A DNA stretch of 64,000 nt from Mariannaea sp. PMI_226. Lineage: Eukaryota; Ascomycota; Sordariomycetes; Hypocreales; Nectriaceae. The DNA lies in the NCBI GenBank assembly GCA_024336345.1, contig JANFOG010000007.1, positions 1,178,001 through 1,242,000 on the forward strand, in the 5' to 3' direction. Shown one piece after another: positions 11,492 to 44,463 of the stretch (position 1 is its first letter; each line of letters begins with the position of its first letter). The position numbers were made by a program, and so were the translations under genes. Under the pieces are notes generated by a model. It was given only the letters and a program-made list of their open reading frames with translations. It did no database searches and was not told the origin of the DNA.

Positions 11492-13187
11492 TCACGGTTC
11501 CATGTCATCTCCTTTTTGTTTATTCGGGGCGTACACGGCGTCAATAATCTCAGCCGACACGTCTGGGCCTGTAAACGTCTTGCTCTTCCCGGTGAAGAAC
11601 CACAGAGCACTGACAAAAGCCAGTCCACCAGCAAGGACCACGCAGACATAATTCATAGTGACCACCGTAACGGGTAGTGTTAAGGGGGCGCAAAGCACAA
11701 TGGTGTATAATGTCACCCACGAGACCGTGAAAATGTTGCAGAAAGGACCAAAGATTCTTCCAAGGTTAAAATACCGCTCGGGAAGACTGGAGCGGCCTGT
11801 AATCATCACAAGACCTTGAGGAATTGCATAAGACAGGTTCAGGAACAAGATAGCCGTCGAAATGAATGTGTTGAACGCCACAGTACTTCCGATGTAGATC
11901 AGACCGTAGAAAATGCAAAAAACACATGACAGAACGCTGGCCTCGACCGGGACTTTGTACTTCTCGCTGATCTTGTCGAATCTTGAAGAAAAGGGCATCC
12001 CGTTATCTCGTGAAAAAGCCCAAATTAGCCGTCCGCTGGTAACCACAAGACCGGAAACACATCCAATGTAGATGAAAATAACCCAGATCAAGAGGAATAA
12101 GACACCGCCAAAGGAACCAATTGTTGTGTCAAGAATTGTATACAGAGGCAAAGTCGCGCTCTGGACATCCTCAAAGGACTTGATAGAAAAGAGAATAGCG
12201 AGAGAGAAGATGACATTGCTGAAGACGCCGATGGTGACGGATAGAACCATGGCGATAGGAACGTACTTGCCCGGACGGACAATTTCCTCCGAGACATGAG
12301 TGGCACTGTCCACGCAAACATAGCTGTGAAAGAGTCAATAACGCTTGTTTTTATCAGGATCATGTAAAGAATACTTACAGCCACATGCCTTGACCCATTG
12401 CTAGCATGTACGCAAAGCCAGTATTCCATCCGGACGTATTAGACCACGTTGTCATCACTTCTCGTGCCCTACTCGCATCGGCACCGGTGGCAAAAAGTGT
12501 GATAGAAATGGTCACAACTGCCAGTAGCGAGGCACAGAAGTAGATCGACTGGAGCTTGGGCATAAAAGAAGACCTGAGTATGACAATCGCGGTCGAAAAT
12601 ACGAGGATGGCAACATATATTAGCCAAATATGCCATCTCTCCGGTATGTATGACTGGTTGTATATGGAAGCCAGCTGGGCAATCAGCTGGGCAGGAAAAA
12701 TGGCAGCCGAAGCCGTTGTGAAAAGGTAGGCGAAGATGTTGAACCAGGCAGTGACGAAGGCGGCTGGTCCTCGATACCTCTCCGGGGCTAACATGAATGA
12801 GAAACTATTCGTGTGAGTTAATTTTGCACGCAAGAGCTTGGGTAAGGGGGGCGATTACTGATACTGCCCACCAGCTGAGGGAAAAGCCGACGCCAGTTCA
12901 GCTAAGCCGGTACTGATGATGCCACAGACCAATGCCGTGGTGATGGGCACCCAGAAGGCACAGGCTGGTCCACCAAGGGTAAGGTTGGTCACCAGCAAGC
13001 TGATGATGCCTGTCCATGAGTTCATGATGGAGAATGCGAATGCAAGCATAGACATCAAGGAGAACTGTCTCGGCATGACAGCCTCATGGCCCTGTGTTTG
13101 GAGCTGTAAATCGTCCAAGTCACTGACGGGAGGGGAATGCCTGACAGAGCCAAGGCTGGCATTGGACCTGGCCTTGTGCAGAGACAT
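11492..13187 (-). CDS. APC-family permease, GABA/choline/amino-acid type
   Basis: Three exons on the minus strand, 13187-12859, 12804-12379 and 12323-11492, with introns of 54 and 55 nt (GTAATC...ATAG and GTAAGT...CACAG). It is 528 residues. Splicing recreates GGQYHFSFMLAPERYR, a hallmark of the fungal GABA/choline permease branch of the amino acid-polyamine-organocation superfamily. About 12 hydrophobic segments follow, including FSIMNSWTGI in TM1 and a VDSATHVSEEI motif in the middle loop. It is a plasma-membrane importer of amino acids, choline or related amines; the exact substrate is inference. It is the first gene of the oxidative block and is divergent from the FAD oxidoreductase at 14217, which suggests uptake of the compound that enzyme oxidises. 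Confidence 0.9.
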
Positions 13188-14216
13188 GTTGGATATTGGT
13201 TACCGTCCCTTTTAGACACAATGTAACCAGAGGAGAGGTGAACAAAGAATGAAAGATGAGGAAAATGACTCGTTCTAGACGGGAAGTCGATGGAAGGATG
13301 GAAGGAGGACGAACGAGGCGATGAGATTAAATTGGATGATGGACGAAGTCTTTGACTTTATGGTCTTGGACAGTAGCAGGACCAGAGCCACCTGCTGATA
13401 CGCCAGGCACGACAAGGGTCGTTTCTACCACTCGTTTCGGTATCTCCAGTACCTCAAGACTTAGCTAAGTCTAGCCCGGTGATGCGAGTGGGAGGGTGAT
13501 AAGCCTTGACCAAAGAATCTGTGCTTGGATGGCCAGCCCGACCCAGTTTTCCCCCGCATTACTATGTCCAGTGCATTTATCGAGACCCCGCGCTTCCCCA
13601 GAATTCGCCTCATCGTGCACGGGATAGGTCATGTCCAGGCGATGGCCATCTTTGGGACGAACCTTGGCCTGGCTTCTAATACCCTCACGTGATAGGCTCC
13701 GCTTAGACCGCACATCGGCATAAGGCCAGGAGTGGGGGGGGGCTATTTCTTTCCAGTTGCCTCCTATACTTAAGTTCCGAGGGCAAAGCAAGCCATGACG
13801 TTGGGGTAGGAGCCAATGGAGGCCTATCGGACCGGGGTCCAAGTTGGAGACCTGAGCCTGAGCGTCTTGCCTAATTCGACGACATTCCGACTAATGCTTG
13901 TCCGCGCCAGCGCTCAGCTGCCGCCCTAGTAATAATCAGTCCCATACAGCCCCGTATTAAGCGATATTTAGAGGCAGCATTTCAGCGGACCAGGTGATTA
14001 GCAACTACGCTGTCACCAATGAACATCAGCAACTCTTTGGCAAGTGCGTGTAGTATTTTGGGTTTTTACAGACGTCTGTCTCCTGTATCTCCCCGTGCTG
14101 TTCCTAGTATTCCCACAAACGCGCTTCTACTCTGCATTCTTCCATTACTCTTTCTTACTTTGTTATTACCAAAGCCTGTTTGATACGCGGGCCAACACAT
14201 CTTCTATCATAGCAGT
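13188..14216. promoter_or_regulatory. Divergent promoter of permease and FAD oxidoreductase
   Basis: About 1.0 kb of non-coding sequence between head-to-head genes. GATA-type sequences that fit the HGATAR consensus of fungal nitrogen regulator AreA occur at 13497-13503 (TGATAAG), 13689-13694 (TGATAG) and, on the other strand, near 13820 and 14205. Such hexamers are common by chance, so nitrogen control is only suggested by their company with an amine permease and oxidase. Confidence 0.4.
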
Positions 14217-15747
14217 ATGTCCTTCGACGGCTTGGTCGACGACCCAGCTTTGCCGGTGGCAAACCCAACTACTTCTTATTGGCAGACTCCTCCCAACGAG
14301 AGGCTTCTGGGCATACAATCGGCCCAGTTGCCCTTCAAGGCCGACATTGCTATCATCGGATCTGGCGTATCAGCCTGTAGTGTGGTTCATGAGCTTCTGA
14401 CTAGCGGGTATACAGGCAGCGTTGCAATCCTTGAGGCGCGAGAGATCTGTTCTGGGGCCACAGGTCGCAATGGAGGCCGTGTTCATGTTCATGCCATCCA
14501 GGACTACGACAAGTACCGCCGTAGACTTGGTGATGAGGCTGCAGAGAAGATTATTCGCTTTCAGATGCTTCATTGGGAAGCTATTAACAATGCTGCTAAA
14601 TCTCTGAGTCCTGAGAATCGCAAGCGGGCAGCCCTCCGCGAGACTGAGTCGGTTGCTGCTGTGTTCAGCAAAAAAAAGCTCGAGGATTTGGAAACCCTGC
14701 TGGCCAATTTCGAGGCTGCGTTTCCTGATTGCGTTGGCCGGTGGAGAATTATTGGAGCTGAAGAGACACAAACGGTAAGTGATTCCCAAACTTGATACAA
14801 ACATATTGTCCTGTTCTTCCGAAACCTGACCTATCTTCTTCCCCCAGAAATACAAGATTAAACACGCAACTGGAGCTCTCATCGGCATTGCCGGGGCTGC
14901 TTGGCCGTACCGGTTGATTACGGGTATCTTTTCGGAGCTTCTCGACGCATATGGCGATCGACTGTCTCTTGAAGCAAACACGCCTGTCCAGGCTGTTTCA
15001 AGAGACCCAGACTTCGACTACAGTTATTCGCTTAAGACTCCCCGTGGCCAGCTCAGGGCCAAACACGTTGTCTTCTGCACTGAAGCGCACACTAGCCACC
15101 TCCTTCCCAAGCTCAGGGGAATCATCGTCCCACGTCGAGGCCAGATGACGGTTCAAAGTCCCGGTAACACTTTTGAGGATCTGCGGGGCAAACGCTCTTG
15201 GAACTTTTATTTCGACACAGGTTTTGATTACCTCCATCAGAACCCTACCAACGGCGACATCATTATCGGCGGAGGAGATTTTGGTGGATTCGAAGGCGCA
15301 GCTCAAATTTACGGCGTGCCTTCAGATGCCATGGAAGAACTGCCAGCCAAAACACATCTCTCTGGAGTACTGCGGGTCGTCTTTGGCAAACAGGCCTGGG
15401 GCGAGGTCCCGCAGGGCCGTGAGTCCATCAAGTCTTCGTGGACGGGTATTCTGGGCAACTCACTCGACCATACCCCCCTTGTTGGTCCGCTTCCTCAAGA
15501 GGCCCTCCACGATCGCCGAATAGGCCGCAAGGAGAAGGGCGCGGAGTGGATCTGCGCCGGCTTCGGTGGTTACGGCATGACCAATTCATGGATGTCAGGT
15601 GTTGCACTTGCCCGGCAGCTTGCAGGCCAAGCCACCCCGTTGTGGCTACCTGAGCCTTACATTATCACATCTTCAAGGCTTTCGAAACTTCAGGCTCAAG
15701 TTGCTGAGATTCAGCACACAGACAAGCACCTACGAGCGTTACTTTGA
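14217..15747 (+). CDS. FAD-dependent amine-type oxidoreductase (DAO domain)
   Basis: Two exons, 14217-14774 and 14848-15747 (73-nt intron, GTAAGT...CCCAG, phase 0), 485 residues. The N-terminal dinucleotide fold has GSGVSA at residues 48-53 and Glu73 at the end of the second strand, followed by SGATGRNGGRV, the DAO-family FAD loop. The C-terminal part has FGGYGMTNSW, typical of YurR/glycine-oxidase-like fungal proteins. The family oxidises secondary or primary amines, or amino acids such as N-methylated or cyclic imino acids, to imines using O2. The substrate cannot be assigned. The neighbours (amine permease, aminotransferase) support an amine substrate. It converges on the aminotransferase gene, 650 bases away. 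Confidence 0.88.
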
Positions 15748-16399: not shown

Positions 16400-17941
16400 T
16401 CAGGACGTCAGAGCTTTGTGGTGCAACTTCACAAATTCTTCCAGACCGGCCACATACTCGGCCACGTCGCTGTCGCTGATGGCAAGGTGGAGCGGGGTGT
16501 ATCCTCGAGGAGCAAGGTATATCTTGCGTGCCAACATGTGATGGTAAAACAGGGACTGCCAAGCTGCGCAATCTTCGCCCGAGAAACGTATGTTGAGCAT
16601 GCTACCTTGACCAGTGATAAATATCTTGGGTAATTGCTCTTGGCTAACGGAATCCGAATGTTTTTGCTTGATAGTAGTAGGCCCCTCAAAACTATCGATT
16701 TCAACAATATTGCGGGAGGCTCCATCAGAATGCTGGGCGTAGAGACCATATTTGATCAGCACATCCTGTAAGGCCAGCTTCATGTTCGTTCCCCGTTTAT
16801 TTAGCTGAGCAACAGCTTTCTTATCATAGATGTCGAGTGCGACAATGCCAGCCGACATGGTCACGATGTTGTTGTTGTACGTGCCAGGGTGCTGCAGACG
16901 CGAGGTGTTGGGGTCAAACAGCGCCATAATATCGCGTCGCCCACCGAAGGCGCCAAACGTCATGCCGCCACCGATGTACTTGCCAAGAGTGAGGAGGTCA
17001 GCGCGCACGCCGACAGATGCAGAGTATCCGTTTACCCCAAGGCGTGACGCCATAACCTCATCCACAATGAACAGAGCACCCAGCTGGTCCGCCTGATGAC
17101 GTAAGTAGCGGAGGAACTCAGGCGAGGCTTGACGGCAGCCACCAGATCCTTGCAACGGCTCGACCAAAATCGCAGCGAGGCTATTGGCAGGCAGACCGGA
17201 TATTACAGTGTCGGTCTCGGAAATGTTATTGTATGGGGCAAAAACAAATTCATGGGGCAAGTTGGAGTTGGGAACGTTTGGGTTGCGCATAAACTCCATA
17301 GGAAAAATAAGAGTACCGCCGTGGTATCCGCCGCTGAAGACAAGGATCTTCTTTCGCCCAGTGATACTGACGGCAGCCGCGATAGCCATAGTATTAGACT
17401 CTGTTCCAGAGTTGGTGAAGCGAACATGTTCCATGCCGCTAGCTTCGAAGCGTTCGACAACCTTCTTGGCGAGAATCTTCTCGTACGTGCATTGCCCGCC
17501 AAAGTTCCATCCCTTGGCAAGGGCGGCAGTCACGGCATCCTTAATCTGGGTATTTGAGTGACCGAAAAGACCAGCGCTGTACTCTCCCAGAAAGTCCAGG
17601 TATGTGTCGCCGTCAACAGAAGTCAGGGTGGCGCCCTCGCCAGACTCAAAAGTCAGCGGGAATGGAGACACATGCAGGATGGTTCTTGTGTTTCCTCCCG
17701 GCATGTACTCCCGACTATCAAACTGAAGCTTTTGCGATTTGGGGTTCTCTTGAATGTATTGAGCCTGTGCGGCCTTCAAAGCCGTGGCGGCGTATGAGGT
17801 TGCTGGATCCTGCCCCATGGTCGTGAGTACTTTGAAGGATGTGTCGTTGCGTTTTGTCTTTTGAAAGGTTGATGCAATGGACAATCCTCCAGCATATACA
17901 CAGAGCGATTTTGACAAGACATTCGAGACATCAGAAGCCAT
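16400..17941 (-). CDS. Class III PLP aminotransferase, GSA-aminomutase-like
   Basis: Single exon, 513 residues, ATG at 17941 (an in-frame ATG at residue 42 is an alternative start). Fold type I signatures are in order: NSGTES at 177-182 (cofactor phosphate), SGGYHGG at 203-209, VDEVMASRLG around 293-302 (Asp294 binds the pyridine nitrogen) and LTLGKYIGGG with the PLP lysine at residue 321. The sequence is closest in style to glutamate-1-semialdehyde aminomutase/omega-transaminases, which move amino groups to or from aldehydes and ketones. Fungi lack the C5 haem pathway, so the role here is probably a transaminase in the local pathway. The N-terminal 41 residues look weakly mitochondrial (Ser/Lys-rich, few acids), but this is not decisive. 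Confidence 0.88.
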   Translation of the reverse strand: MASDVSNVLSKSLCVYAGGLSIASTFQKTKRNDTSFKVLTTMGQDPATSYAATALKAAQAQYIQENPKSQKLQFDSREYMPGGNTRTILHVSPFPLTFESGEGATLTSVDGDTYLDFLGEYSAGLFGHSNTQIKDAVTAALAKGWNFGGQCTYEKILAKKVVERFEASGMEHVRFTNSGTESNTMAIAAAVSITGRKKILVFSGGYHGGTLIFPMEFMRNPNVPNSNLPHEFVFAPYNNISETDTVISGLPANSLAAILVEPLQGSGGCRQASPEFLRYLRHQADQLGALFIVDEVMASRLGVNGYSASVGVRADLLTLGKYIGGGMTFGAFGGRRDIMALFDPNTSRLQHPGTYNNNIVTMSAGIVALDIYDKKAVAQLNKRGTNMKLALQDVLIKYGLYAQHSDGASRNIVEIDSFEGPTTIKQKHSDSVSQEQLPKIFITGQGSMLNIRFSGEDCAAWQSLFYHHMLARKIYLAPRGYTPLHLAISDSDVAEYVAGLEEFVKLHHKALTS

Positions 17942-19129: not shown

Positions 19130-21250
19130 TCATTGCCAAACGTCCTCTTGATATCCTCCATTCTGACGGAGCTCCTTGATTACTTCCTCGGCTTGTTCAG
19201 TGGTCAAGCCACGCTGATTAGCAATTATCTCGCCCAATGTTTTGTGCACAGCCCGCGCCATGTTGGCGGCATCTCCGCAAATGTAAATTATCGCTCCTTG
19301 TCGAAGCAGCTGGTTGACCAAGACGGATTGCTCGAGCAGCCTATGCTGTACGTAAACTTTTGCTTTTCCCTCGCGAGAAAATGCAGTGAACAATTTGAAA
19401 GTGGCACCTAATTTCTCTTCAAAAACCTAGGACCCGTCAGTAAAACTACGCCAATTCAAGTGCTTCGTCTCAGTGAGCTGGTGACAAACCTTCCACTCCT
19501 CCTTGTAGAGGAAATCCTCATTCCGGTTACGACAACCAAAAAACAATAAGCTAATGCCAACCTTCTCACCACGGGCAGCCAAAGCAGCACGCTCTTGAAT
19601 AAACCCGCGGAAGGGAGCGACACCACTCCCAGGCCCAATCATTATTATAGGTCGAGATGCGTCAGCCGGTAACTTGAAATGGGAATGTCGGATGTGCACA
19701 GGGATCTGATGATTTATATACTTCTGACGTGGGCCGCCAGTGGTATAAGTTAAGCAGTATGGGTCATGAGTGGGCTCGTTGTTCTGTCTCTGTTTCAGTG
19801 CAAGGAGGTAGTTGGTAGTGACGCCCTTAACGGTGTACCCGGGCATCGCGAGCGACTCAACGACAGCGGTGATGCTGATTCTGTCCTTCTGAACCAATGA
19901 GGAAGACGAGATGGAGTAGTAGCGGGGTTGAAGCCTGTGAACGCCCTCAATCAAGAGAGAGAAGGGAACTGAAAATGCCTTTTGGCTGATTGTTTGCAGT
20001 GTTTGTGCGATGTTGTATCGCTGTTCCGTGACTTTCTTGCGAAAATACTCCTTATTATTTCCAAGGCGTACGAGCTCTTTCTTAGATACCTCATCAGGAG
20101 CAAACTGCGCCAGAGAGGCGATGAACTGGCGAGAAACGGGAGCACATATTTCCATATAATAAGAGACTGCAGCATCGTAGGTAGTTGGTGTCGGGAAAGG
20201 AACTTTAGCAGTCGCATCGACACTCTCGATGTTGATGACTTGGTCACGCTTGCGGAGTAGTCCAAAGACGCTGAGGAATCGATCCACCTCTCTTCCTGCG
20301 TTGGTAGGCCAGATAGCAATGTGGTCGCCAGTGTGATAGGATAGTTCACTGTTGACCTGGATCTCAAGGTGCAAGCAATGGCGGTCCTTGACGGCGAACA
20401 GCTCGCGAGATTCGGTGATGGTAGCGATGTAGGGATTGTGAGCCGAGAATGGTCTCTTCTGGGAACCATTGAGATGCGCTTCCGTGGGCTCACCAAGATA
20501 GACAGATTCATGTTGTAGAGACAAGACTCTGTCTTCAGTCACCGAGTACAGAGGCTCATAGACTAATTCGTCTCTCTCATCAAGGTTCATTGCCTTCGCA
20601 ACAGTTGCCCACATATCCTCCCTCCAAGCTAAGAAGTCCTCTTCCAATGTCCCAGCACCGTCATCGCCGGTGCCGAGGCTTCCAATGCGTTGGGCACCAA
20701 GTTGGGTCAACTTGGTATCCATGTTGCGAATTGTGGCATTGTAGTGCTCGTACATGCTATTTCCTAGACCAAATGCGACATATCTCAGTGACGATAACTT
20801 GAGTGCAATGTCCTCTCGGTTGATGTAGTTGAAGAATCCTATAGCATTATCAGTTGGTTCACCCTCGCCGTAGGTGGCCATGACGAAAATGGCGAACTTG
20901 TCTTCGGGGAAACTTTCGAAGCACTCGAAATCGTAATCAGCCAGGTCAGCGATCAGGGTCTTGAGTCCGAACCGCTGTGAGCCTTCCTTTGCGAGCCTGG
21001 CCACATAATCTTCGGCCGTACCAGTCTGGGTACCATAGAAGAGAACACAGTTTTTGCCAGTGACTTTTAATCGCTCAACAATATCTCTGGTGACCTGGCT
21101 TCCAGACTTCTTAGGCAATCCATTTGCATGGATAATTCCAGCAACGTATGGGGGGATTGTGGGAGCCTTGAAGGCGCCTTTGAGATAAACGAAGCTAAGC
21201 AACAGGGTGAAGCCGACAACGACCCAATCGGTGCTGCTGATCTCAGTCAT
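19130..21250 (-). CDS. NADPH-cytochrome P450 reductase paralogue
   Basis: Two exons on the minus strand, 21250-19490 and 19426-19130, 685 residues. The 63-nt intron (GTTTGT...CCTAG) is supported because splicing joins YKEEWK to VFEEKLG, a conserved CPR junction. An N-terminal membrane anchor (residues 9-27) precedes the flavodoxin domain (YGTQTGTAEDY at 72-82, ATYGEGEPTD, FGLGNSMYEHYN). The FAD domain (RYYSISSSS, GVTTNYLLAL) and NADPH domain (GPGSGVAPFRGF, YICGDAANM) follow, with EDVW near the C terminus. It delivers electrons from NADPH to microsomal P450s. Length is normal and all cofactor motifs are intact. The open frame extends 28 codons upstream but without an ATG. A dedicated CPR inside a metabolic block is uncommon; it probably serves the P450 at 32018. 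Confidence 0.93.
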
Positions 21251-22421: not shown

Positions 22422-22803
22422 GTAAGCAGGACCTATAAATCTAGATAAGGCAATGATGTAATCAGCGTTTACGTCTTAAATCGATTTGATTAAGGGGTAC
22501 TGTTTCCATCGTGCATCATATTCTCAGCGTTATTAATAACCGCGCCACAACGAGGCATACTGGAAACCCCGATTCATTTTTATATAATGGGTTAGAGTAA
22601 CGATCTCCATCCATCGCCTACGAATGTTGCCTTATGTTCTCTTACAGCGTGCATCACCACTCAATGCGAGATATTCAGCTGTGCGCAAGTCCCATTATGT
22701 GAGCTCATCCAGGGATGCAGCGGAACAACAAAACAGCCCGTTATTCACCGGGGCGCTGCACAAATACATGTCTATTATAGAACATGAACCAAATCTGAAT
22801 TCA

Positions 22804-25230: not shown

Positions 25231-26879
25231 ATGGTCCCTCCTACTGTTACCATCAAGGCTCCAAATGGCCACTCTATTACAATCAACACTGGTCTGTTTA
25301 TCAACAACGAGTGGGTCGAGGCCAAAAATAATGACAAGATTACTAGCATTAATCCCGCGTGAGTAATCTCTGACAAATTCCTTGCTATCAATGTTGGGTA
25401 GGATGCTAATCCTGATGGGACAGTACTGAGGAGGCTTTGGCTGAAGTTTCAGCTGGTTCTGCTGAGGATGTCGACAAAGCTGTAAAGGCTGCTCGCGACT
25501 CTTTCAACGGACCTTGGCGTAACATTGACGGAACGGCTCGTGGAAACCTTCTTTTGAAGCTGGCCGATCTCATCGAGGCTGATCACGAAATCATTTCCAG
25601 CCTCGAGTGCTTGGATAGTGGCAAGACACTGGCTAAGGCTAAGATGGATATCAAGGAAGCCTTCGAGATCTTCCGATACTATGGCGGCTGGGCCGACAAA
25701 CACTATGGCGAGACAATCGATTCCGGAAAGCATCGGTTTACTTACACTCTGCGCGAGCCATTGGGTGTGTGTGCCGGCATCATTCCGTAAGTCAACAGCA
25801 GAGACCCACTGAACCTGAGCTTTACTCTATGCAAGGTGGATAGCTAATATCGTATGGGTAGCTGGAACTACCCTCTCATCATGGTAGCTTTGAAGCTTGC
25901 TCCCGCTATTGCATGTGGAAACACCTCTGTTATCAAGCCATCAGAATTCACCCCCCTCTCTGTCCTCTACTTCGCCGAGCTCGTCATAAAGGCAGGCATC
26001 CCTGCCGGTGTAGTCAATATTGTCAATGGCTATGGCAAAACGGCCGGAGTGCGCCTTTCTGAGCACCCTGATGTGAACAAGATCGGCTTCACTGGCAGCA
26101 CCGCAACTGGTAAGCTTATCATGAAGGCTGCCTCATTCACCATGAAGAGAGTATCTCTCGAGACTGGTGGCAAGTCGCCTCTGATCGTGTTTGATGACGC
26201 AGACATCCCCAACGCCCTCAAGTGGACACATTACGGTGTTTATGCCAACCAGGGTCAGATTTGCACATCCACCGCGCGCATCTACGTTCACGAGAAGATT
26301 TACGATGAGTTTGTCAAGCGGTTTCTCGACTATACAGAGAAGCACGCCATTGTCGGCGACCCCTTCAGCCAGACGACGTGGGTTGGCCCTTTGGTTTCCA
26401 AACAGCAGTTTGACCGCGTTCTGTCCTACGTCAAGATCGCCAAGGAGGAGGGAGCGACACTGGTCAACGGTGGAGGGGTTTACCCCAACCGCCCCAACAA
26501 CAAGGGTTATTTTGTGCAACCCACTCTCTTCGGCAATGCCACGCCCAATATGCGAATTTCCAAGGAGGAGATCTTCGGTCCCTTCGCGGTCTTCACCAAG
26601 TTCTCTAGTCAGGAGGATGTCATTGCACTTGCCAACGACACCGACTATGGTCTGTCGGCGGCCGTGTTCACCAACGATGTTACCCGTGCTATACGTGTGT
26701 CGGAGAAGCTTGAGGCTGGTATGGTTTGGATCAATTCGAGTAATAACTCCGATCCCCGCCTGCCATTTGGTGGATTTAAGCAGTCGGGACTGGGCCGGGA
26801 AGCAGGATATTCTGCTCTCGATGAATACACGCAGCTCAAGACTGTTTACCTGAATTTGGAGTTTGCGAATGATGAGTAG
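25231..26879 (+). CDS. NAD(P)-dependent aldehyde dehydrogenase
   Basis: Three exons, 25231-25358, 25424-25786 and 25862-26879 (introns of 65 and 75 nt), 502 residues. Splicing recreates SINPATEEAL and GIIPWNYP, both standard in the family. Catalytic features are the oxyanion Asn166 in PWNYP, FTGSTATG at 240-247 binding the dinucleotide, general base Glu264 in LETGGKSP, nucleophile Cys298 in GQICTSTAR, and EEIFGPF towards the end. Normal ALDH length, cytosolic, no targeting signal. It oxidises an aldehyde, perhaps the product of the neighbouring amine oxidase or hydrolase, to the acid. It is transcribed divergently from the DUF1537 kinase, which may mean joint control. It is intact, in contrast to the ALDH relic at 21998. 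Confidence 0.94.
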
Positions 26880-28052: not shown

Positions 28053-28430
28053 ATGCCCCAGTCTCAAGCCAACGAGAGAGGCTCCACCGACCCCGCTGAG
28101 GTCCCCTACGGCCACTGGAACTCTTTCCCCTGGGTCGACTTCCCCGAGTGGAAGGGTGGCAAATCTGTCATGTTCCGATCTGCCGATGGCAAAAGGGTCG
28201 CCGGTGCTTTCCGCGAGTCTGCTACGGCGACCCTCACCTATCCCTGTGACGAGTTCACTTACGTTGTCAAGGGTTGGGTCAAGGCTCACGTACATGGTGG
28301 CGACACCTTCACGCTTAAGCCTGGCGACTGCGTCTACTTCTCCAAGGGCCAGACTGTCGATTTTTCATCCAGCGACGATTATGTCAACGTCTCCTTCTTC
28401 TTCGATGATGAGAAGGTTACCCTTATATAG
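28053..28430 (+). CDS. Small single-domain cupin protein
   Basis: Single exon of 125 residues. A conserved double-stranded beta-helix core is seen as DEFTYVVKGWVKAHV, then TFTLKPGDCVYFSKGQ, then a short aromatic/acidic end. This fits the DUF861/cupin_3 group (EutQ and ureidoglycine-type proteins), which bind small acids or amines and sometimes a metal. The usual cupin histidines are few (one in KAHVHGGD), so metal-dependent catalysis is uncertain. Codon use is GC-biased like a well-expressed gene. It follows the ALDH gene on the same strand, 1.2 kb downstream, and a TATA-like element lies 150 bases upstream. The role in the block is unknown; isomerase, lyase or binding functions are all possible. 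Confidence 0.8.
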   Translation: MPQSQANERGSTDPAEVPYGHWNSFPWVDFPEWKGGKSVMFRSADGKRVAGAFRESATATLTYPCDEFTYVVKGWVKAHVHGGDTFTLKPGDCVYFSKGQTVDFSSSDDYVNVSFFFDDEKVTLI

Positions 28431-32017: not shown

Positions 32018-33767
32018 ATGGAGCTACCAGTTGGCATCGCCTTGCCAGAAACGATCCCTCTGCCTTTCAGCATCTCGCAAATAATCTTGACAACAACCTT
32101 TGTGGTGACTCTGCTACGGTATTTCATCTATCCAGCATTCTTATCCCCTCTTTCTAAATATCCTGCCGTCCATTGGACTTGCCATTTCTCCCCTCTGTGG
32201 TCATGGTGGGCCAAGTGCTATGGCTGGGAGAACCGCCGAATTCTAGCTGCCCACAGGGAGAAGGGATACATTGTCAGAGTGGCACCCAACTCCATCCACA
32301 TCAATTCTGCCGAAGGATTGAAGACCATTTACATGGGGGACTTCCCCCGAGCCAAGTTCTATTGGGCCGCGTTCAAGAACTATGAGTACGTCCATGAATC
32401 TATTTCCTCAAGGTCCGCTCATTCCCTTGATCGACATTGTTAACGAAACATCTGTTTCTGATAGAACTCCCCATATGGTGGCTATGCCTGATGCCGACGA
32501 TCACAATGTCCGAAGAAAACTCTTTTCTACCGCCTTTAACAAGTCTGCAGTATTGACTTCTCCCACGCTTCACATCGTGTGCAAAACGGTCCTGTTCAAA
32601 CGGTTTCTGCCAGCGCTGCACAGGATAGCAGACACGGAAATGCCATTTGAAGTGTTTAAGATGATCTACGGAGTTGCCATGGACTTGTTTGTAGGGTGGC
32701 AATTTGGACTCGCAAGCAGCAGCAACTGGACAGAAGACACTGAGGATCGAGACCGCTACTTGGAGGCCTATAATCACAAAGCGCAATACTTCTTCCGGTC
32801 GGTGGAAACATTTGACCAGGTTACAATCTTACAACGGCTGGGCATCAACTTCATACCCAAGGATTTTTGGACAGCGAACGACGTCTGCGAGGATTGGAAC
32901 ATAGATTTGTGCGATCGAGCTGCCCAAACCATCGCCGACGGCCGCCATATCGACGCTGCTGACGAGCCTGTGTTGTTCCGGCATGCGCTGAAGACCATGT
33001 GTGGTTTAGAGAACGGCCAGCTCGAGAAGGGTACGATCAATACCTATCCTCGACGGCTGGAAATCGCTGCCGAAATGTTTTCATTCAATGCTGCTGCCCA
33101 TGAAGGAGGTGCCATACCTCTGACGTGGATCACATACGAGATGAGTCGTCGTCCCAGCCTCCAGGATAAACTACGCAAAGAGCTAGAATCGCTCAAGACC
33201 ACCTTGAGACACCCAGCCCCTGTCAGCGACGATTTACCCCTTCCCTCCCAGAAGGAGATTGAGTCGCTGCCTCTGCTTGACGCCATAATCATGGAGACTA
33301 TGCGCCGTTATCCAGTCATCTCTGGGCCCCTCCCGAGAGTCGCACCTAGTGATTTCACTTTGGGAGGTAACGCATTCATTCCGAAGGGTACACAGGTTGC
33401 ATGTTCAGCATGGTCACTGCACCGAAACCCCGAAGTCTTCCCCAATCCGGAGGAGTGGAATCCTGAGCGGTGGTTGAAGGCGACTCCGGAACAGCTTTAC
33501 GAAATGAGAAAGTGGTTCTGGGCTTTCGGAAGTGGCAGTATGATGTGTATCGGTAGCCACTTTGCTCTCTTTGGTACGTTGCTCGTCGCGTTCCCACCTA
33601 TCCTCTTGACTAACAATGAAATACCAGCTGTCAAAACAATTGTCGCCTTGCTATATTCTAATTTCACAACCTCCATCTATCATGAAGGCGACATGACTCA
33701 CCAGGACGCCTATTTGTCTGGCCCAATTGACCAAGAAGAGTTTTTAATTCTCCTCAGAGCTCTTTAG
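32018..33767 (+). CDS. Cytochrome P450 monooxygenase
   Basis: Three exons, 32018-32385, 32465-33573 and 33628-33767 (79- and 54-nt introns), 538 residues. An N-terminal hydrophobic anchor is followed by a proline-containing hinge. The K-helix motif ETMR is at 400-403, PERW at about 456-459, and the haem loop FGSGSMMCIG carries the thiolate ligand Cys484; the last junction (FALFAVKT) is normal. The I-helix reads AAHEGGAIPLTW at 333-344, where the usual (A/G)Gx(D/E)T motif would be. The conserved threonine is glycine here. The enzyme would hydroxylate or otherwise oxidise an unknown substrate at the ER with electrons from the reductase encoded at 19130. It sits between the BVMO and the Zn2Cys6 regulator, so co-regulation is likely. 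Confidence 0.93.
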
Positions 33768-34540: not shown

Positions 34541-35953
34541 TTAGCAAAGTACAAAGAATTTATCCTTTTTGAGCAAATGCCTCATCCAAAATACTTTTTC
34601 CCCGCGATCTCTCAACCTCCAAATCTCTTCCAAAAACTCAATGGCATGCAAATTCGCCGGGATCCGTGTCAACGAAAACAGCTTCCTGAAACATTCTCTG
34701 ACTCGCTCTCGCAGGTCAAAGTCCTCCATATCTAACTCCGAACCTGCAGTAAGCAGAGGCTGACCAAGAATACATTGGTAGTGACACTCTTCGGATATCT
34801 GCTCTATATTCTGGAGGATATCCTTGGCGTAAAGCTGAACGATATCCCGACGAGAATTTTCAACAGTATCCGTCGCGGGTGATGAAGAAGACGACTCGAT
34901 CGATCGATACATAATGATGAGGCCATGTTTGACAAAGGAATCATTGACCAAACCTGGTGGACCGTCTACATGATCTGAAGCCAGTAACTGGTTTTTGAAT
35001 GACTGCTCAAGCTCAAGATCACGGCCCCAACCGTCAATGATCATGCGACAGTAGCTGCCAATATCTCCCAACAAATACATGATCTTGGCGAGATACCCCA
35101 CTGTAGCATTGTATTCGGAGCTCATGGTCTGAACACAACCGAACAGTTCTGGGGTATACAGCGGCTTTTGTTGACATGGAGCCTGCAAAAATGAAGTGGC
35201 CTGGTACCATAGCAAATACGTTGCCACAGCTAACCGAGTAAAAGGATCTTGTGCTGAGTCGGGCTTGGACAGCAGTGTATCTAGGATGGCTCGTGCGCCA
35301 AAAATATGTCCTTGGCCGTAGTCATCCCCAGATTGATGATAGACCCAGATAGACGATAAGCCTAGCAAAAGGACGGCGAGGAGTGTACCTGGTAACGGCT
35401 GATCGGTGGCTTTGAGTTCTTTTTGAATAAGGGTTAATGCATTGCCCCTCTCTTTAAGGCAGTCTTGTAGGGAAGAGTTGCCAAAGAAGCTTTCGTGTGC
35501 TACACTGAGGCTCTGGATTCCGTGGACGAGGGACTCCGAGGTTTCTAAGTACCGCACTATGTCAAACGAGAAAGGGTTGATGTTCGGGTCAATGACCATG
35601 ATCTGGCTAGCTTTTTCCAGCCAGTACTGGAGAAGGCGATGATTGATATTGACTTTAATGTTTGATAGCGGTCCTGCCACGGTCAATCCTGGTATCTCGA
35701 CTTGCCACTGGGCGCTCCGAAATGGAGAATGACAATTGACCCCCCCTTGTTGGCAGCGAAGACATACAGGAAACGTCTCGTCGCATTTGAGATGTCGCCG
35801 TTTGCACTCTAGACAGGCGAAGCGGCTTTTTCTTCTCTTATTAGGGATATCCAGAGCTCGCGGCTGACAGTCCCTGTGCTCTCTGACCATGGGCCCCTTT
35901 TGTCGGACACCATTGCCGTCTCCGACGAACCGGACGCGGAACTTGGAGGCCAT
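34541..35953 (-). CDS. Zn2Cys6 transcription factor, probable regulator of the oxidative block
   Basis: Single exon, 470 residues. The binuclear cluster, C-x2-C-x6-C-x6-C-x2-C-x6-C, lies within about residues 47-74 and is preceded by a basic stretch (NKRRKSRFA). The rest is a helical fungal-specific regulatory region of the compact type (YWLEKASQIMVIDPN, GIQSLSVAHESFF, LLAVLLLGLSSIWVYH). A frameshifted sister copy lies at 41031, with conserved residues throughout. Position beside the P450, between it and the hydrolase, makes it the prime candidate for pathway-specific activation; this is inference. Its upstream region carries a tandem duplication (36164-36420), which could hold repeated binding sites. 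Confidence 0.92.
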   Translation of the reverse strand: MASKFRVRFVGDGNGVRQKGPMVREHRDCQPRALDIPNKRRKSRFACLECKRRHLKCDETFPVCLRCQQGGVNCHSPFRSAQWQVEIPGLTVAGPLSNIKVNINHRLLQYWLEKASQIMVIDPNINPFSFDIVRYLETSESLVHGIQSLSVAHESFFGNSSLQDCLKERGNALTLIQKELKATDQPLPGTLLAVLLLGLSSIWVYHQSGDDYGQGHIFGARAILDTLLSKPDSAQDPFTRLAVATYLLWYQATSFLQAPCQQKPLYTPELFGCVQTMSSEYNATVGYLAKIMYLLGDIGSYCRMIIDGWGRDLELEQSFKNQLLASDHVDGPPGLVNDSFVKHGLIIMYRSIESSSSSPATDTVENSRRDIVQLYAKDILQNIEQISEECHYQCILGQPLLTAGSELDMEDFDLRERVRECFRKLFSLTRIPANLHAIEFLEEIWRLRDRGEKVFWMRHLLKKDKFFVLC

Positions 35954-36938: not shown

Positions 36939-38445
36939 ATGTACCGCCGACTCGTGATCTGGCGACAAGTCGAAGCGGCCCTCATAGAAGCAACCGTGCA
37001 TATACTTACTATAGAAAACGCAGGTCGTTCGGTTCTCCTCCCCGAAGCTCGCCATCGAATCGGCGGTCGAGCCTGTACTGCTGAGCACGGAGGTGTGCAT
37101 CAGCTGCGCCTTTTGGAAAATTTTCTGTCACTGAAAATAGATAAGGCTTTTCTTTACGAAATGGGAGGCTCCTGGGTAAATCAGAATCTCGGTTATGTAC
37201 TCAAACAGCTGGTCAGATACAATCTGCAAAAGAATCTGGTCAATTCCCGTCGAACTAGGCTTGATAACGACTACTACACCTTGAATGTTCCTGGTACGGC
37301 TCTTTCTCACAGACCACGGATTGAGTTGATCCGGTATGGATGCTTATTAAATCTGATTGCAGGTGCTCCCTCCCAAAAACTCAGTCACAGAGATGCTGCC
37401 AAAATGACCCAGAAAGCCCGGGATTTTCTTTTATTAGCGTCGATGGAAATTTATGTCGCGACATTTGCCTGCTACCACACTCATAGCTCGACAATATTCA
37501 AGTTCCTCGTCATTTGGTAGAGGAAATTGATAAACTTTCCACCAAGGATCCCATCGACGACATCAAGCCTCTTCTCACTCTGGAGGAACTGGGCATCTTA
37601 TCCGCCCTTATTCTTCTCGTTACGGGGGGTAAGCTCGAGAACTCGGGTTTATGGGACTGTATCTGCTCTCATGCTCTCCTCATGTATGCGTCACTCAACT
37701 TTAGAGATATCTAGATCACTTACAAGCTTCGGGAGGGTCAATCGGCGTTTGCGCGCAAGATCTTCGACGAGGCGGCCGAGTTTGGTCTCCAATACGCCTC
37801 CAACACTGAAATCAAGTCGATCAATGACCAAACACGGAATGCTTTCGGATCTGTTACCGTCACCACCTCGAAAAATCTGACATTTGAAGGACGTCGAGTA
37901 TTCTGCACTTTTCGTTTGAATGTTCTCAAGTCCGTTCAATTCACTCCCTCTATATCTGCCAAGCGCCAAGAAGCCTTTGACATCGGTTATATTAACCTCA
38001 TGTTAAAGGTGCAGGCGGTGATCGGAGGTTCTGGTTTGGCCTCATGGAATGGAATGTGCCCACCGGGCCACACAGTGCATGGTTATGGTGATCCTGTCAT
38101 ACCAAAAGGCGAAACACACATCGTTGCCTTTGGAAGGAGGATGAGAAGGATGATTTTGTGTCTGAACGTGAGACTTGAGAAGGCCATTGCTGCTTTCCTA
38201 GCCTTGCATCCTATGAAACTCAACAAGACAGTGAGTTCTATGAGGTCCCGGAGTATTGATAATTTTTCGTCTAATTATTCCTTCTACAGATCTTTCATAA
38301 CTGGGTAACGGATCTTTATGCCCAGGATGGCCCAGCTTGGTGGATTCCCGAGTACATGAGTAAATATCAGGATGCGTCAGAGCCCTCGTGGTGCTGTATA
38401 CTTCGCTCGGGGGAACTGGGCACATGGCTGGCGGGCATAAATTGA
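36939..38445 (+). pseudogene. Flavin monoamine oxidase relic
   Basis: Segments in the order of fungal MAO-N-type amine oxidases are spread over all three frames. They are LLPEARHRIGGRA (FAD loop), then FLYEMGGSWVNQN, then a TGGKLENSGLWD segment, then GQSAFARKIFDEAAEFG, then LNVLKSVQFTPSIS, GLASWNGMCPPG, ETHIVAFG, and last HNWVTDLYAQDGPAWW and SKYQDA. The first FAD glycine motif is missing and several frameshifts and stops intervene. The C-terminal flavin-binding region has degenerated: a frame reads CCILRSGELGTW where an intact gene has a GG-x-FA-x-AD-type motif. The gene once coded a peroxisomal or cytosolic amine oxidase. Its loss, beside the intact DAO-type oxidase, hints at redundancy or change of substrate. 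Confidence 0.8.
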
Positions 38446-39154
38446 TGGAGCATTAGAACAAGGCTCCTTGTGTGGCATCGACGCGTTGAGGGGCCCTCGG
38501 TGTATGGATAAGGCTCACTGTCGAGCTGGACGGCTTTGAATCCACCGATCAGAGCTTATACGATGATGAAAATGAAGCTTTGTCCCATTGAAGGTCATGC
38601 ATTCCTAATGGTGGGTGATCGCAGTGCTAATTTATTCTTGCCACTTAGTCGATATATATGATTCTATTGCTCCTCAACCATGCTGCCTGTGTCTCTTCCA
38701 CTGTTGGAGAGCTTCGTCGATTCTTCTCTTTGCCGAGCACTGTAGATAATGGACGTCAGTTACTTTGCAGGTTTATTGACTCTATTGAGTCGGGTTGTGT
38801 TAATAATCGATATCGGATATGATACAATCGCTTGGGTTGGCCAATTTAACCTTTTGAGATGTTAGAAGCGAAGATGAAGTTTTTAAGGGACTTTGGTACA
38901 GGAACAATGGACAAGATACTCCAACAGCCCATTTCCGTAGAAGCGAGAGATGGGCATGTTCAACACTGCCAAAGTATGGCATTTGCCATCCATGAAGTTA
39001 TTTGTGACTGGAATATGAGTAACCTAGACTACAATTCATCGATGGATATATTCATGAATATCGTCAACGTACTTAGCTCTATCAACGCCGCTATCATAGC
39101 CACCACGCATATTCTCATGCTCCCATGTGATAATGAAACAAATCTTTCCTGACA
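38446..39154. other. Gene-free region
   Basis: A plus-strand frame at 38859-39152 (97 residues) has an ATG and a stop but no recognisable domain and no neighbouring exons. I leave it unsupported. Confidence 0.4.
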
Positions 39155-40132
39155 CTAAATCCCTTTCATTGCTGCGTATTGATTCCTCAATGCCCTTTTT
39201 GTAATGTCGGATGCTGGTGCAATTGACTCGAAAGAATGGGCCACACCCGCGTAGACATGCAGCTCACAGTTAATGTTCTCTTTCATAATGCGGTAGGCAT
39301 ACTCGATAGCCTCATCTCTGAAAATATCCAAGCCACCCACTTCAACATATGTTGATGGCAACCCAGCCAAGCTTTTAGCCCTGGCAGGAGCTGCGTAGGG
39401 GTCTGTATGGTGTGCGGCAACTTTATCCGGTCCCCCGAGAACTGCTGCCCATGCGTTGAAATTATTGTCATATTTCCAATTTGCAAAAGGCTCCAGTACC
39501 GGATCAGGTTTGACTGTTCGATCATCCAGCATCGGATATATTAGGATCTGTTTCGCAAGTGGGGGTTGAAAGCCATAATCCCGAGCCATGAGCGCCAATG
39601 CCGCGGCAAGACATCCCCCAGCACTCTCGCCCATGACAGCAACACGATGAGGGTCAATGTTAAACTCCTGTGTCTTTGTGGCCAACCACTCGAGGGCTGC
39701 ATAGCAGTCATTGACCGGTCCTGGATGAGGTGATTCGGGGGCAAGCCGGTAGTCCACACTGAATATCTGGAGCTGGCACTCGGCCGCTTGGAGTCTAAGA
39801 CGCTTCAAGCCGAACGGAACCGATCCGACAATCATGCCGCCGCTATGTGCGTGCAGTATTGCAGAGGTAGGTGGTGTGCCCTCGGAGAGCAGAACAGCAG
39901 GGCACACACGATAAACAGAAATCGTGCCTCCATCATTGAGGGTGCTGATGTGATGGACAGTCACCTGAACCCCCTCAGTCTCCGGCAGTAGAGAGTTGCG
40001 TCGATCTTGGACCTGCTCCCAGAGCTTGCGACGGGCTTTGAAGTCGCTCTCGGATGGTGAGTTTGCTGGAAGAGACGCCAGCTCTAAGCCCAGGCCATCT
40101 TCGAATTCGGAGTCGTATTGAAGGGCGGCCAT
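39155..40132 (-). CDS. Alpha/beta hydrolase of the hormone-sensitive lipase family
   Basis: Single exon, 325 residues. The nucleophile elbow GESAGG carries the catalytic Ser. An Asp is expected in the VEVGGLDIFRDEA segment and the catalytic His in GVAHSFES. SVDYRLAPESPHPGPVNDCYAALEW is diagnostic of HSL-type esterases. The oxyanion-hole motif, normally HGGG, reads HSGG (LHAHSGGMIVGS), an unusual change. These enzymes hydrolyse esters and some lactones or carbamates in the cytosol. With the BVMO nearby, hydrolysis of a BVMO-made ester or lactone is a natural hypothesis. The gene is flanked by relics on both sides (amine oxidase, second regulator). Confidence 0.92.
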   Translation of the reverse strand: MAALQYDSEFEDGLGLELASLPANSPSESDFKARRKLWEQVQDRRNSLLPETEGVQVTVHHISTLNDGGTISVYRVCPAVLLSEGTPPTSAILHAHSGGMIVGSVPFGLKRLRLQAAECQLQIFSVDYRLAPESPHPGPVNDCYAALEWLATKTQEFNIDPHRVAVMGESAGGCLAAALALMARDYGFQPPLAKQILIYPMLDDRTVKPDPVLEPFANWKYDNNFNAWAAVLGGPDKVAAHHTDPYAAPARAKSLAGLPSTYVEVGGLDIFRDEAIEYAYRIMKENINCELHVYAGVAHSFESIAPASDITKRALRNQYAAMKGI

Positions 40133-41030: not shown

Positions 41031-42180
41031 ATGAGCTCGACGTTTTCCGTTCTCTTTGTCGGGCCCAATAGGAAGACTTATTGCACTGGAAAACAGAACG
41101 AGGCAGTGGAGCATGTAAAAAAATTAGACAGGCCCAACAGAAGACACAAGAGCCGGTATGGCTGCTTTGACTGCAAGAAGCAACATCTAAAATGCGACCA
41201 GACCTTCCCGGTTTGCTTGCGCTGTCAGCCACGAGGGATTGTCTGCCGCTCTGCATTCCGAAGTACTTGGCCTGACCACTCGTGGGCCTTTCTCAAAGCT
41301 CATCGCCAATCGTCGCCTTTTGCGGTACTGGCTCAAGAAGACGAGCCAAACCATAGTCATTGATCCAAATAATGATATATTTTCTTCTGGAATCGTTCGA
41401 TATCTCCAGTCCTCAAGATCTCTCGTGCACACTATTCAGAGTTTGAGTATCGCTCATGAGAACCTTTTCAACTCCTCAGGTCTTGAAAGTTACTTGAGCC
41501 AAAAACGTCCTGCGTTGCCATACATACAACAGGAGCTCCACCACAAAAACCAGTCAGTTGATGGTCCGCTTTTGGCTGCGCTGATGCTGGGTCTTGGGTC
41601 TACCTGGATTCATCACGAAACAGGAGATTATGGAAAAGAACATTTGCTTGGGACCAGAGCTTTACTTGACATCCTGCTTGCTAAGACTGACTCAAAAAGG
41701 GATCCATTCGTGCAGCAAGCTGTGGCGGTCTACCTCGGCTGGGATCAAGCAACAGCGTTTCTACCTCATTCAGATCATCAGGCCCCACTCTACAGCGCAG
41801 ACCTTTGGCGATGCGCCCCAAGTATAACCCTACGATTGGATACTACAGACGTTCTCTATACTTTGGGGAACTTGGGCCGCTACTGTCGTGCAGACATTGA
41901 TACTGGTGTTCACGACGATGTAGTCGAAGAGGCGCTTGAAGAGCAACTGTCAATTTATGAGCCAGTAACCAAGAGTTCCTATTCGATAAACCACGCATTC
42001 CGTAGCATGGTTTGATTATGCTGTATCGCACAATGGAATTATCCCCCCACATAGTCAATTGGCCTCGACACGGATGCGACGTGCCGTAACGAGGCAACAA
42101 TTCAACAGCACGCCAGAGATATCCTGCAAATAATCGACAATTTACCACACACCGACTACAACATAAAGTTTCAAGGTTTG
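41031..42180 (+). pseudogene. Frameshifted second copy of the Zn2Cys6 regulator
   Basis: From the ATG at 41031 the reading follows the regulator at 34541 almost domain for domain. It has an FSVLFVG start, an intact zinc cluster (CFDCKKQHLKCDQTF...), then a frameshift between about 41250 and 41265. After it come RRLLRYWLKKTSQTIVIDPN, HTIQSLSIAHENLF and LLAALMLGLGSTWIHH. A second break comes near 42005: the open frame stops at 42013-42015, while another frame goes on HGLIMLYRTMEL. A third piece reads RDILQIIDNLPHTDYN before homology ends near 42178. At least two frameshifts and a lost C terminus make it a pseudogene. A fragment with only the zinc cluster and a few dozen residues could still be translated. 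Confidence 0.85.
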
Positions 42181-42183
42181 AAT

Positions 42184-42519
42184 CAATGTGATACTGTCGC
42201 AAGTTAAATAGCCTGCAAGTAATGGCTGGCGCGCTAGATTAGCACAGTTAAGAAAGGCGTCCTGGCTTTTGTTGTTGAGTCTTGTAACAGCAGCCAGACA
42301 AAATTCTATGTTGTTACCGACACGGAGGAATTTGCGCGTGACAATGATGTGGCCTATCAGCGACCTCATCGCTTCTATAGGAGCCCCCGAGCCATTAGTC
42401 CGGCTAAGCAGCCAAATGCTCAGTCGACCTGAATACTGTATAAAGTACAAGAGTTTATCTCGCCCGGCCAGTGTGGAGATGAAGCGTACAAGCTGTGAAA
42501 ATGATGGATGAAGCATCAT
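42184..42519 (-). pseudogene. PEX11-like peroxin fragment, truncated
   Basis: A minus-strand frame from 42519 starts MMLHPSFSQLVRFISTLAGRDKL, given here only as MLHPSFSQ and STLAGRDK, a recognisable PEX11 N terminus. TRKFLRVG and AGYLTCDSITL follow. PEX11 proteins promote peroxisome elongation and division and are about 230 residues; this one loses homology after about 112 residues, near 42184, precisely where homology of the regulator relic on the other strand ends. It is therefore a truncated copy at a rearrangement junction. A full-length PEX11 would be expected elsewhere in the genome. Confidence 0.65.
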
Positions 42520-43213
42520 GTTCTAAGGGCAGGTGGGGCGGGGGAAGTGGGTATATTCCAGGGCGAACTGCATTGTATGCTACCAGATAGTTATACTTAC
42601 ATATCCTTGGGTTAACAAGCGCGTGATAGATCGGGCAGTGCGCTGCTGACCACTGGTCAACTTGACATTCGGCACTGGCAATCTGCAAGACGTGGCCCGG
42701 AGCGGTTTCTTGACTGCCTTTTTCGACTCGATTCCGAGCACCATCGAGTGGGACGACAGGTTGGACTTTGTGGCCCGTGATTTCCTCAAAGGGTAAGTAA
42801 CAATCTGATGGTGCAATGACTCAACAAAACGACGCTGCCACTAGCAATGATAAATCTGTTGCGGTGGCTGGAAATCGCTCAATACTTACTTAACCATTGG
42901 CTATTATCATGCTCAAAACACGTAGCAAGCTTCAATATCTTTTAATGAATGAATCGAATTTCGAATTCCATCATACAGAGCTTCATATTCTAGAGCTATG
43001 CCACTACGATCTTAGTATCATTTCACAACTGCACGATGGCACCCTCGAGCCTATGTCAAAGAGGCGTGAACTGAATGAATTAAACAGAACTTTTGTTGTA
43101 TGCTATTTAACACACTGTACTTTTTTTACATTGCCGAACAATGAGATCCATGGCAAAACCTAAGAAATGTTGTTTGTGATGTCCCTCGCACGTTTCAATC
43201 ACAAGTTAGTTTT
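42520..43213. other. Region with an unidentified coding fragment
   Basis: On the plus strand, 42592-42792 reads NKRVIDRAV, one stop, then LVNLTFGTGNLQDVARSG, FLTAFFDSIPSTIEWDD and RLDFVARDFLKG, ending at a GTAAGT-like site (42795). This has the look of one exon of a broken protein gene, family not recognised. The rest (42800-43213) shows nothing. Confidence 0.35.
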
Positions 43214-44463
43214 CTATAAGCTTCCGACGGAATTGAAGTCTTCTAATGCTTCATAAACACGCCTGTACATGGCCTTTTCGCCCTCACGGACCCAGACTCG
43301 GGGCTGTAGGTATAATTATAATTAGCATAACAGACAAAACATCGTATTTGGTTAGACACGTACATCAAAGTGTTTTTTATTAGGCTTCTCTGCGCCATCG
43401 GGGTTGCCGACAGTAGTGCTGATATAGTCCTTCCAGTTGATAATGTAGTCCCGAATGCCAGAGCAGTAGGCAAATTGTGTATCTGTATCCATGTTGACTT
43501 TGACGACCCCATGCCCGATAGCATCAAGATATTCTTTTTTGGTTGAGCCAGAGCCTCCATGAAAAACAAAGAAGATGGGTTTGACGTTGGAACTCGTAGC
43601 TGCCTGAACGTATGCTTGATGCTTGCCAAGGAGTTCGGGGCGTAGAATAACATTACCTGGCATATAGAGTCCGTGAACGTTTCCGAAACCTGCTGCGATG
43701 GAGAAATGGGGAGAAATAGGGGAAAGGGCATGATGAATCCTTAGTATATCCTCAGATTGGGTATAAAGAGAAGCCTTATCAACGCCCTCATTATTAGCGC
43801 CGTCTTCTTCGCCTCCTGTTATACCAATCTCCATTTCTAGCCACTGGTTTATAGCGGCGGCACGCTTCAAATATTGAGCAGTGATTTCAATATTTGATTT
43901 GATAGGTTCTTCAGAGAGGTCAACCATATGAGATGAAAAAAGGGGCTCATTATGAATCTCAAAATACGCCTCATCGGCATCTAGCATGCCATTGAGCCAT
44001 GGGAGCAGCTTCTTTGCACAGTGATCGGTATGAAGAATGACAGGAATACCATAGCTAGGAGCAATAGCACGGATATAGTGGGCAGCGGCAATAGAACCGG
44101 CAATTGAAGCGGATTGGTCTGTGTTTGATACACCCTGCAACATTTTAGATCTTCCATACAAACTGAATATTGCTGAGATACAGATCATACCTGGCCGGCA
44201 AAGCATGCAGCACCAATGTGGGTGAATTGGATAATAATAGGTGACTTGGCGTCACGAGCGGCTTCAAGAACGGCAACAATTGTCGAAGATGTAGTGACAT
44301 TCTGGAAGTTTACGTTAGCTACATCGTTGACATTATATCCAAGGTCGCGGCCTACAATGCTTGGGAGGGCCAATTGATTCTGCCGAGCATAGTCCAATAC
44401 CCGATGAACATCTTTACCAACAATCACCCCTGCTTTTCGACTCAGAAGTTGTTGCACACCCAT
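43214..44463 (-). CDS. Class II fructose-bisphosphate aldolase paralogue
   Basis: Four exons on the minus strand, 44463-44356, 44301-44191, 44134-43364 and 43303-43214 (introns of 54, 56 and 60 nt), 359 residues. Each junction restores family sequence: ALPSI-NVTTSST, CFAGQ-GVSNTDQ and KKHFD-PRVWVREGEK. The start MGVQQLLSRKAG is typical. Catalytic Asp110 and zinc ligand His111 (HTDHCAKK), His227 in NVHGLY and His265 in FHGGSGS are present, as is NMDTDTQ at 288-294. The lysine that normally follows HGxY is Met231. Class II aldolases split fructose-1,6-bisphosphate with Zn2+. The divergence from the strongly conserved glycolytic enzyme suggests a second copy with another ketose-phosphate substrate, perhaps tied to the DUF1537 kinase. 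Confidence 0.9.

Follow-up and report, generated by a model that had tools for sequence, protein, structure and literature searches.

A candidate accessory gene block in the fungus Mariannaea sp. PMI_226 that pairs a beta-transaminase-type enzyme with a cyclohexanone-type Baeyer-Villiger monooxygenase

What might a fungus use a dense block of metabolic genes for, and do such genes form a single system? This question is raised by a stretch of 64,000 nt (hereafter the window) from contig JANFOG010000007.1 (positions 1,178,001 to 1,242,000) of Mariannaea sp. PMI_226, a member of the Nectriaceae (Hypocreales) with an assembly of 42.2 Mb in total. Positions 11492 to 44463 of the window hold the block. 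An earlier sequence-only reading had listed an amino-acid permease, a DAO-fold oxidoreductase, a class III aminotransferase, a cytochrome P450, an NADPH-cytochrome P450 reductase (CPR), a Baeyer-Villiger monooxygenase (BVMO), an HSL-type hydrolase, an aldehyde dehydrogenase (ALDH), a cupin, a DUF1537 kinase, a class II aldolase and a Zn2Cys6 regulator, and all 12 genes were confirmed by Pfam (Table 1). Because the genes carry introns, we modeled them with a small splice-aware predictor and then corrected the models by eye. The kinase is the sole spliced model checked against a deposited protein of the same strain, with which it agrees over all 490 residues. Our results lead us to propose, tentatively, that this is an accessory block for the catabolism of a beta-amino acid, probably alicyclic or aryl, with a patchy distribution across distantly related fungi.

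The first line of evidence comes from the aminotransferase. Its best relatives of solved structure are the beta-phenylalanine aminotransferase 4ao9 (E 6e-103) and then two beta-transaminases. In beta-transaminases, R41 binds the substrate carboxylate, E75 supports R41, and V43 and Y76 contact the ring (PMC9850050, in part). The window enzyme conserves R41, E75 and Y76 and carries isoleucine in place of V43, a substitution shared by 6iz9 over the aligned part. Among the best 120 of 7,028 relatives, arginine occupies position 41 in 119 (one gap), position 75 is glutamate in 115 and aspartate in four (one gap), and position 76 is tyrosine in 64 and phenylalanine in 55 (one gap); position 43 is valine in 85 and isoleucine in 23. 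The 15 sequences of the clade described below present R41 in 15, E75 in 14, Y76 in 15 and I43 in 14 cases. The second arginine of the family, R398, was found in 118 of the 120 homologs, with two gaps. By its residues and closest structures, the enzyme is of the beta-amino-acid type, as far as sequence can tell. It has no close second copy in the genome (the next matches are 42-45% identical, piecewise), and an alternative upstream start codon at 17941 is possible.

Two other identities were considered and rejected for this enzyme. A polyamine or gamma-aminobutyrate (Puu-like) function is disfavored by the much weaker match to PuuE (E 9e-24, against 8e-103 for the beta-phenylalanine aminotransferase), and putrescine aminotransferase is also far more distant. 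The enzyme likewise falls under the curated cut-offs for glutamate-1-semialdehyde aminomutase. Its fungal relatives are frequently labeled as glutamate-1-semialdehyde aminomutase or acetylornithine aminotransferase; these names are probably misassigned, since the window enzyme scores below those curated cut-offs.

The BVMO provides the second line of evidence. The best solved relatives are cyclohexanone monooxygenases (CHMO; top E 8e-182), and the type I fingerprint FxGxxxHxxxW(P/D) starts at residue 159, between GxGxxG motifs at 15 and 184. These features indicate that the predicted protein is a BVMO of the cyclohexanone-monooxygenase type. Again, no close second copy was found in the genome, where the next match is 36% identical. 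The block thus holds the single CHMO-type BVMO and the single aminotransferase of this type in the genome, together with one of two Cupin_3 and one of three DUF1537 genes, although this co-occurrence of rare families was judged post hoc. Catalytic motifs are whole in seven enzymes: the BVMO, aminotransferase, HSL hydrolase, ALDH, P450, CPR and kinase.

We then analyzed the evolution of the two enzymes. In a tree of 53 of the best 120 aminotransferase relatives, the window sequence falls in a set of nine (support 95/91) inside a set of 15 (100/99) with Sporothrix eucalyptigena, Penicillium malachiteum and further contigs. Grouping it with two Fusarium sequences and one Stachybotrys sequence was rejected (approximately unbiased test, p-AU 1.6e-45). 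The BVMO tree (48 sequences from the best 120 of 5,972 relatives) pairs the window protein with a sequence from one other contig (100/99) and places it in a set of eight (98/85) inside a set of 14 (100/100) with S. eucalyptigena, Penicillium herquei and further contigs. Grouping with all ten sampled Hypocreales sequences was rejected (p-AU 1.6e-40; those ten do not form one clade themselves), as was grouping with the Fusarium/Nectria clade alone (p-AU 4e-42). The groups tested for both enzymes were picked after the trees had been viewed, and the other Hypocreales sequences may be paralogs. Simple common descent with the sampled Hypocreales sequences is rejected, and the placement fits transfer without proving it. 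The two genes, 11 kb apart, fall with the same or sister taxa in separate trees, as expected for genes traveling together. Locus tags were also tried as a proxy for synteny and were uninformative, since the tags belong to different strains or to BVMOs that fall beyond the clade of the window protein (Phialophora macrospora and Aspergillus nanangensis).

The simplest chemistry that would place both typed enzymes in series runs from a beta-amino acid through a beta-keto acid and a ketone to a lactone or ester and then an acid. The permease would import the beta-amino acid, which the aminotransferase would deaminate with a 2-oxo acid as amino acceptor; the resulting beta-keto acid would lose CO2 spontaneously. 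The BVMO would insert oxygen into the ketone, the HSL enzyme would hydrolyze the lactone or ester formed, and the hydroxy acid or alcohol would pass through an aldehyde that the ALDH oxidizes. Hydroxylation by the P450 with a CPR could come earlier or later in the route, and regulation probably rests with the first Zn2Cys6 gene. Published work on beta-phenylalanine reports its transamination, followed by spontaneous loss of CO2 to give acetophenone, and discusses a BVMO as the next step (PMC6150868, in part). The substrate probably contains a ring. We infer the precise substrate, the order of the steps, co-regulation and the assignment of permease, DAO enzyme, P450 and cupin to the block, and the concerted action of the block genes as one set is only partly borne out by the evidence.

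A bacterial comparison bears on which of these genes belong together. A scan of prokaryote genomes with the BVMO alignment yielded at least 564 confirmed relatives, and the best 80 loci, some without full flanks, were searched by tblastn with the window proteins (E 1e-8). Relatives of the HSL hydrolase (about 30% identical) and of the ALDH were each found in 48 of the 80 loci, counted separately and without a background rate. The BVMO, HSL enzyme and ALDH thus resemble a recurrent set, since each of the latter two recurs at 48 loci. No matches were found at these 80 loci for the DAO enzyme, permease, CPR, kinase, cupin, regulator or aldolase, nor for the P450, although distant bacterial P450s would be missed at this threshold.

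Several results weigh against the proposed catabolic block. The aminotransferase also had no match in the 80 bacterial loci, and its tie to the BVMO is therefore unsupported in bacteria. Among the relatives listed, S. eucalyptigena is the sole named species that the two enzymes share, and this through two strains; the Penicillium species differ (P. herquei for the BVMO and P. malachiteum for the aminotransferase), although these two are closely related. Among the block genes, the Pfam scan recognized no alcohol dehydrogenase that could act on the hydroxy acid. Eight promoter regions share no dyad motif beyond chance (best P = 6e-5, uncorrected, among 30,905). The block also contains a broken MAO-N-type amine oxidase gene and a broken second Zn2Cys6 regulator, so it may be decaying and shedding functions. 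Finally, the phyletic pattern of the kinase is Eurotiales-wide, unlike those of the BVMO and aminotransferase.

Together with the aldolase, the missing promoter motif, the broken genes and the deviating kinase are what would be expected of a loose assemblage: an accessory region where metabolic genes without a common pathway have collected, in part by horizontal acquisition, and in which at least two pairs may be real units and the whole block is not. The aldolase clears the NCBIfam cut-off for class II fructose-bisphosphate aldolase (TIGR01520), and the content of G and C at its third codon positions (GC3) is the lowest in the block (0.43). We consider such an assemblage rather unlikely, because the single-copy aminotransferase and BVMO lie close together and have their nearest taxa in common, and rare families are tightly packed with two same-family regulators alongside. 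GC3 did not clearly set the block apart as a unit: its genes other than the aldolase range from 0.52 to 0.60 against 0.65 (standard deviation 0.08) elsewhere, which is within about 1.7 standard deviations (15 genes from 13 regions).

The kinase itself was compared with the best 120 of 7,980 relatives. The other 119 comprise 112 Eurotiales, one Pycnora and six without assignment; no other Hypocreales appeared within the best 120. In a tree of 46 of these 120 sequences and two paralogs from the same genome, the kinase groups with 40 Eurotiales (100/99) on a long branch, apart from both paralogs. This would suggest horizontal gain from Eurotiales, yet a Eurotiales clade without the kinase stands (p-AU 0.145) and we rejected this explanation. 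No solved-structure relative of the kinase was found at E 1e-5. An acid-sugar pathway formed by the kinase and the aldolase was rejected as well: the aldolase is of the fructose-bisphosphate type, the kinase scores 48 bits against a cut-off of 450 for D-threonate kinase, and the two genes lie 18.8 kb apart. Both are probably passengers. The earlier view that all listed genes form one unit is not supported, given the phyletic pattern of the kinase and the type of the aldolase.

The broken genes had been overlooked in the sequence-only reading. In the amine oxidase, a TAA at 38438 lies within a conserved motif and further stops occur at 38306 and 38357; all three fall in homologous sequence, and the gene as read is not functional. 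The second regulator is 42-49% identical to the first. A MAO-N-type gene at the center of the block, along with the BVMO, HSL enzyme and ALDH, could point to a former cycloalkyl-amine route in which the oxidase once made the ketone and of which only the ketone part still works, since the oxidase has decayed. There is a parallel in a cyclohexylamine-using bacterium that carries a cyclohexanone-to-adipate cluster and whose amine-oxidizing gene was not found (PMC7206491, in part). We regard this history as improbable: the oxidase is broken and the aminotransferase is intact, no cyclohexanol-type alcohol dehydrogenases were recognized, and the oxidase piece (157 residues) had no match in the 80 bacterial CHMO loci.

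A further point against a catabolic role lies to the right of the block, where polyketide synthase domains, also overlooked before, begin at 58129, 13.7 kb from the aldolase. The earlier statement that the region has no polyketide synthase core is correct for the genes scanned in 11492-44463 and, because of these domains, for that interval only. Pfam matches to ketosynthase, enoyl- and keto-reductase, acyl carrier protein and carnitine-acyltransferase domains extend from 58129 to about 67970, and other domains were recognized by eye only. The synthase ends about 4 kb beyond the window (positions 1-3971 of the right flank, L009) in the carnitine-acyltransferase domain, an uncommon release domain. 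Fungal tailoring sets often include P450s and BVMOs, and the P450, BVMO, HSL enzyme, ALDH and oxidases could in principle tailor the product of this synthase, with the aminotransferase supplying or installing nitrogen. Such a secondary-metabolite cluster seems unlikely to us, as the gap between aldolase and synthase includes an AT-rich stretch, and the permease, the beta-transaminase-type enzyme and the HSL-ALDH pair suit breakdown better. Overall, the earlier idea of a catabolic block joining nitrogen removal to ring opening survives in part: the beta-transaminase-type enzyme, the CHMO-type BVMO and their similar histories agree with it, whereas the MAO-N-type route is broken and a synthase lies nearby.

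Table 1. Features of the window, their positions and the basis of their assignment.
Feature	Position	Strand	Basis
APC amino-acid permease (AA_permease_2), 3 exons, frame intact	11492-13187	(-)	Pfam
DAO-fold FAD oxidoreductase, 2 exons	14217-15747	(+)	Pfam DAO
Class III aminotransferase, beta-amino-acid (beta-phenylalanine) type	16400-17818	(-)	Pfam Aminotran_3
CPR paralog, 685 aa, intron 19427-19489	19130-21250	(-)	Pfam Flavodoxin_1/FAD_binding_1
DUF1537 (four-carbon acid sugar) kinase, 3 exons, 490 aa	22804-24403	(-)	Pfam SBD_N + NBD_C
ALDH, 3 exons	25231-26879	(+)	Pfam Aldedh
Small Cupin_3 protein	28053-28430	(+)	Pfam Cupin_3
Type I BVMO, cyclohexanone-monooxygenase type	29076-30692	(-)	Pfam FMO-like
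Cytochrome P450, 538 aa, 2 introns	32018-33767	(+)	Pfam p450
First Zn2Cys6 regulator	34541-35953	(-)	Pfam Zn_clus + Fungal_trans_2
Broken MAO-N-type amine oxidase (pseudogene)	about 36939-38530	(+)	Homology, in-frame stops
HSL-type alpha/beta hydrolase, candidate lactonase or esterase	39155-40132	(-)	Pfam Abhydrolase_3
Second Zn2Cys6 regulator, broken; divergent copy of the first	41031-42144	(+)	Homology, frame change and stops
Class II fructose-bisphosphate aldolase paralog	43214-44463	(-)	Pfam F_bP_aldolase, TIGR01520
Polyketide synthase, highly reducing type, extends beyond window	58129-64000	(+)	Pfam domains

Among the other enzymes of the block, the P450 has no close paralog in the genome (the best are 39-40% identical, in pieces). 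It had been described as accompanied by its own reductase, a pairing that the layout does not establish: the CPR lies 10.8 kb away, and FAD_binding_1 has nine matches at about eight places in the genome. The CPR is full length once a 63-base intron, whose donor site reads GTTTGT, is removed by ordinary splicing. No solved-structure relatives of the DAO enzyme were found at E 0.001. Between the block and the synthase, 44637-50007 holds a gene without Pfam match, which resembles yeast AIM6, a piece of a glycosyltransferase and a flavin-reductase-like gene, followed by the AT-rich stretch. We tried 50100-57900 as a repeat family and rejected it, as only one other partial copy was found in the genome. 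Within it, 51339-52083 contains two stretches 70% and 84% identical to positions 369931-370756 of contig C24, which may be the remains of an old repeat or transposon. In the right flank (L009), a gene pair of the 2-oxo-acid dehydrogenase E1 alpha/E1 beta type (6198-7247, plus strand; 7574-8870, minus strand) adjoins the synthase and perhaps supplies its starter unit.

Returning to the proposed catabolic block, a more specific version can be imagined. The cyclohexanone-type BVMO points to a ring ketone, and for this reason an alicyclic beta-amino acid similar to cispentacin might be the substrate of a pathway spread among fungi by transfer, in which, after uptake, transamination would yield a 2-oxocycloalkane carboxylate, loss of CO2 a cycloalkanone and the CHMO-type enzyme a lactone opened by the HSL enzyme, for use of both nitrogen and carbon. 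Cispentacin, which bacteria produce, is called an antifungal antibiotic in the title of a work that PMC10698177 cites (in part). We see this version as highly speculative and a long shot; if true, breakdown of cispentacin-type compounds would let the fungus feed on, or withstand, the compound of a competitor. More generally, two industrially interesting enzymes with matching non-vertical histories constitute a cheap and concrete test case for a route from beta-amino acid to lactone, and the same pair bears on the possible exchange of such routes between fungal orders.

The candidate block can be compared to several known systems. Bacterial degradation of beta-phenylalanine in Paraburkholderia and Variovorax relies on the same aminotransferase class, with the same key residues, and leads from keto acid to ketone (PMC6150868, PMC9850050, both in part); this system is bacterial, and the BVMO discussed for it is of the hydroxyacetophenone type rather than the cyclohexanone type found here (PMC6150868, in part). 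The parts of these two papers considered describe no block with this set of genes. We found no fungal cluster tying a beta-transaminase to a BVMO in the open-licence literature, with most subscription journals outside this scope. The broken oxidase belongs to the same family as MAO-N of Aspergillus niger, and differs from it by its in-frame stops. Fungal cycloalkanone monooxygenases, including a 57% identical Dactylonectria protein so named, are of the same enzyme class as the window BVMO but form a separate clade, and grouping with them was rejected. The bacterial chn operons for cyclohexanol and cyclohexanone have a CHMO-type BVMO, an HSL-family lactonase (ChnC) and an ALDH in common with the block. 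In chn operons a pair of alcohol dehydrogenases stands beside these three genes, and no such domain was recognized among the scanned genes of the block, which in turn presents the permease, aminotransferase, DAO enzyme, P450 and CPR as additional components. Each enzyme of the block comes from a known family, and it is their combination in a fungus that has no counterpart in the open-licence literature searched.

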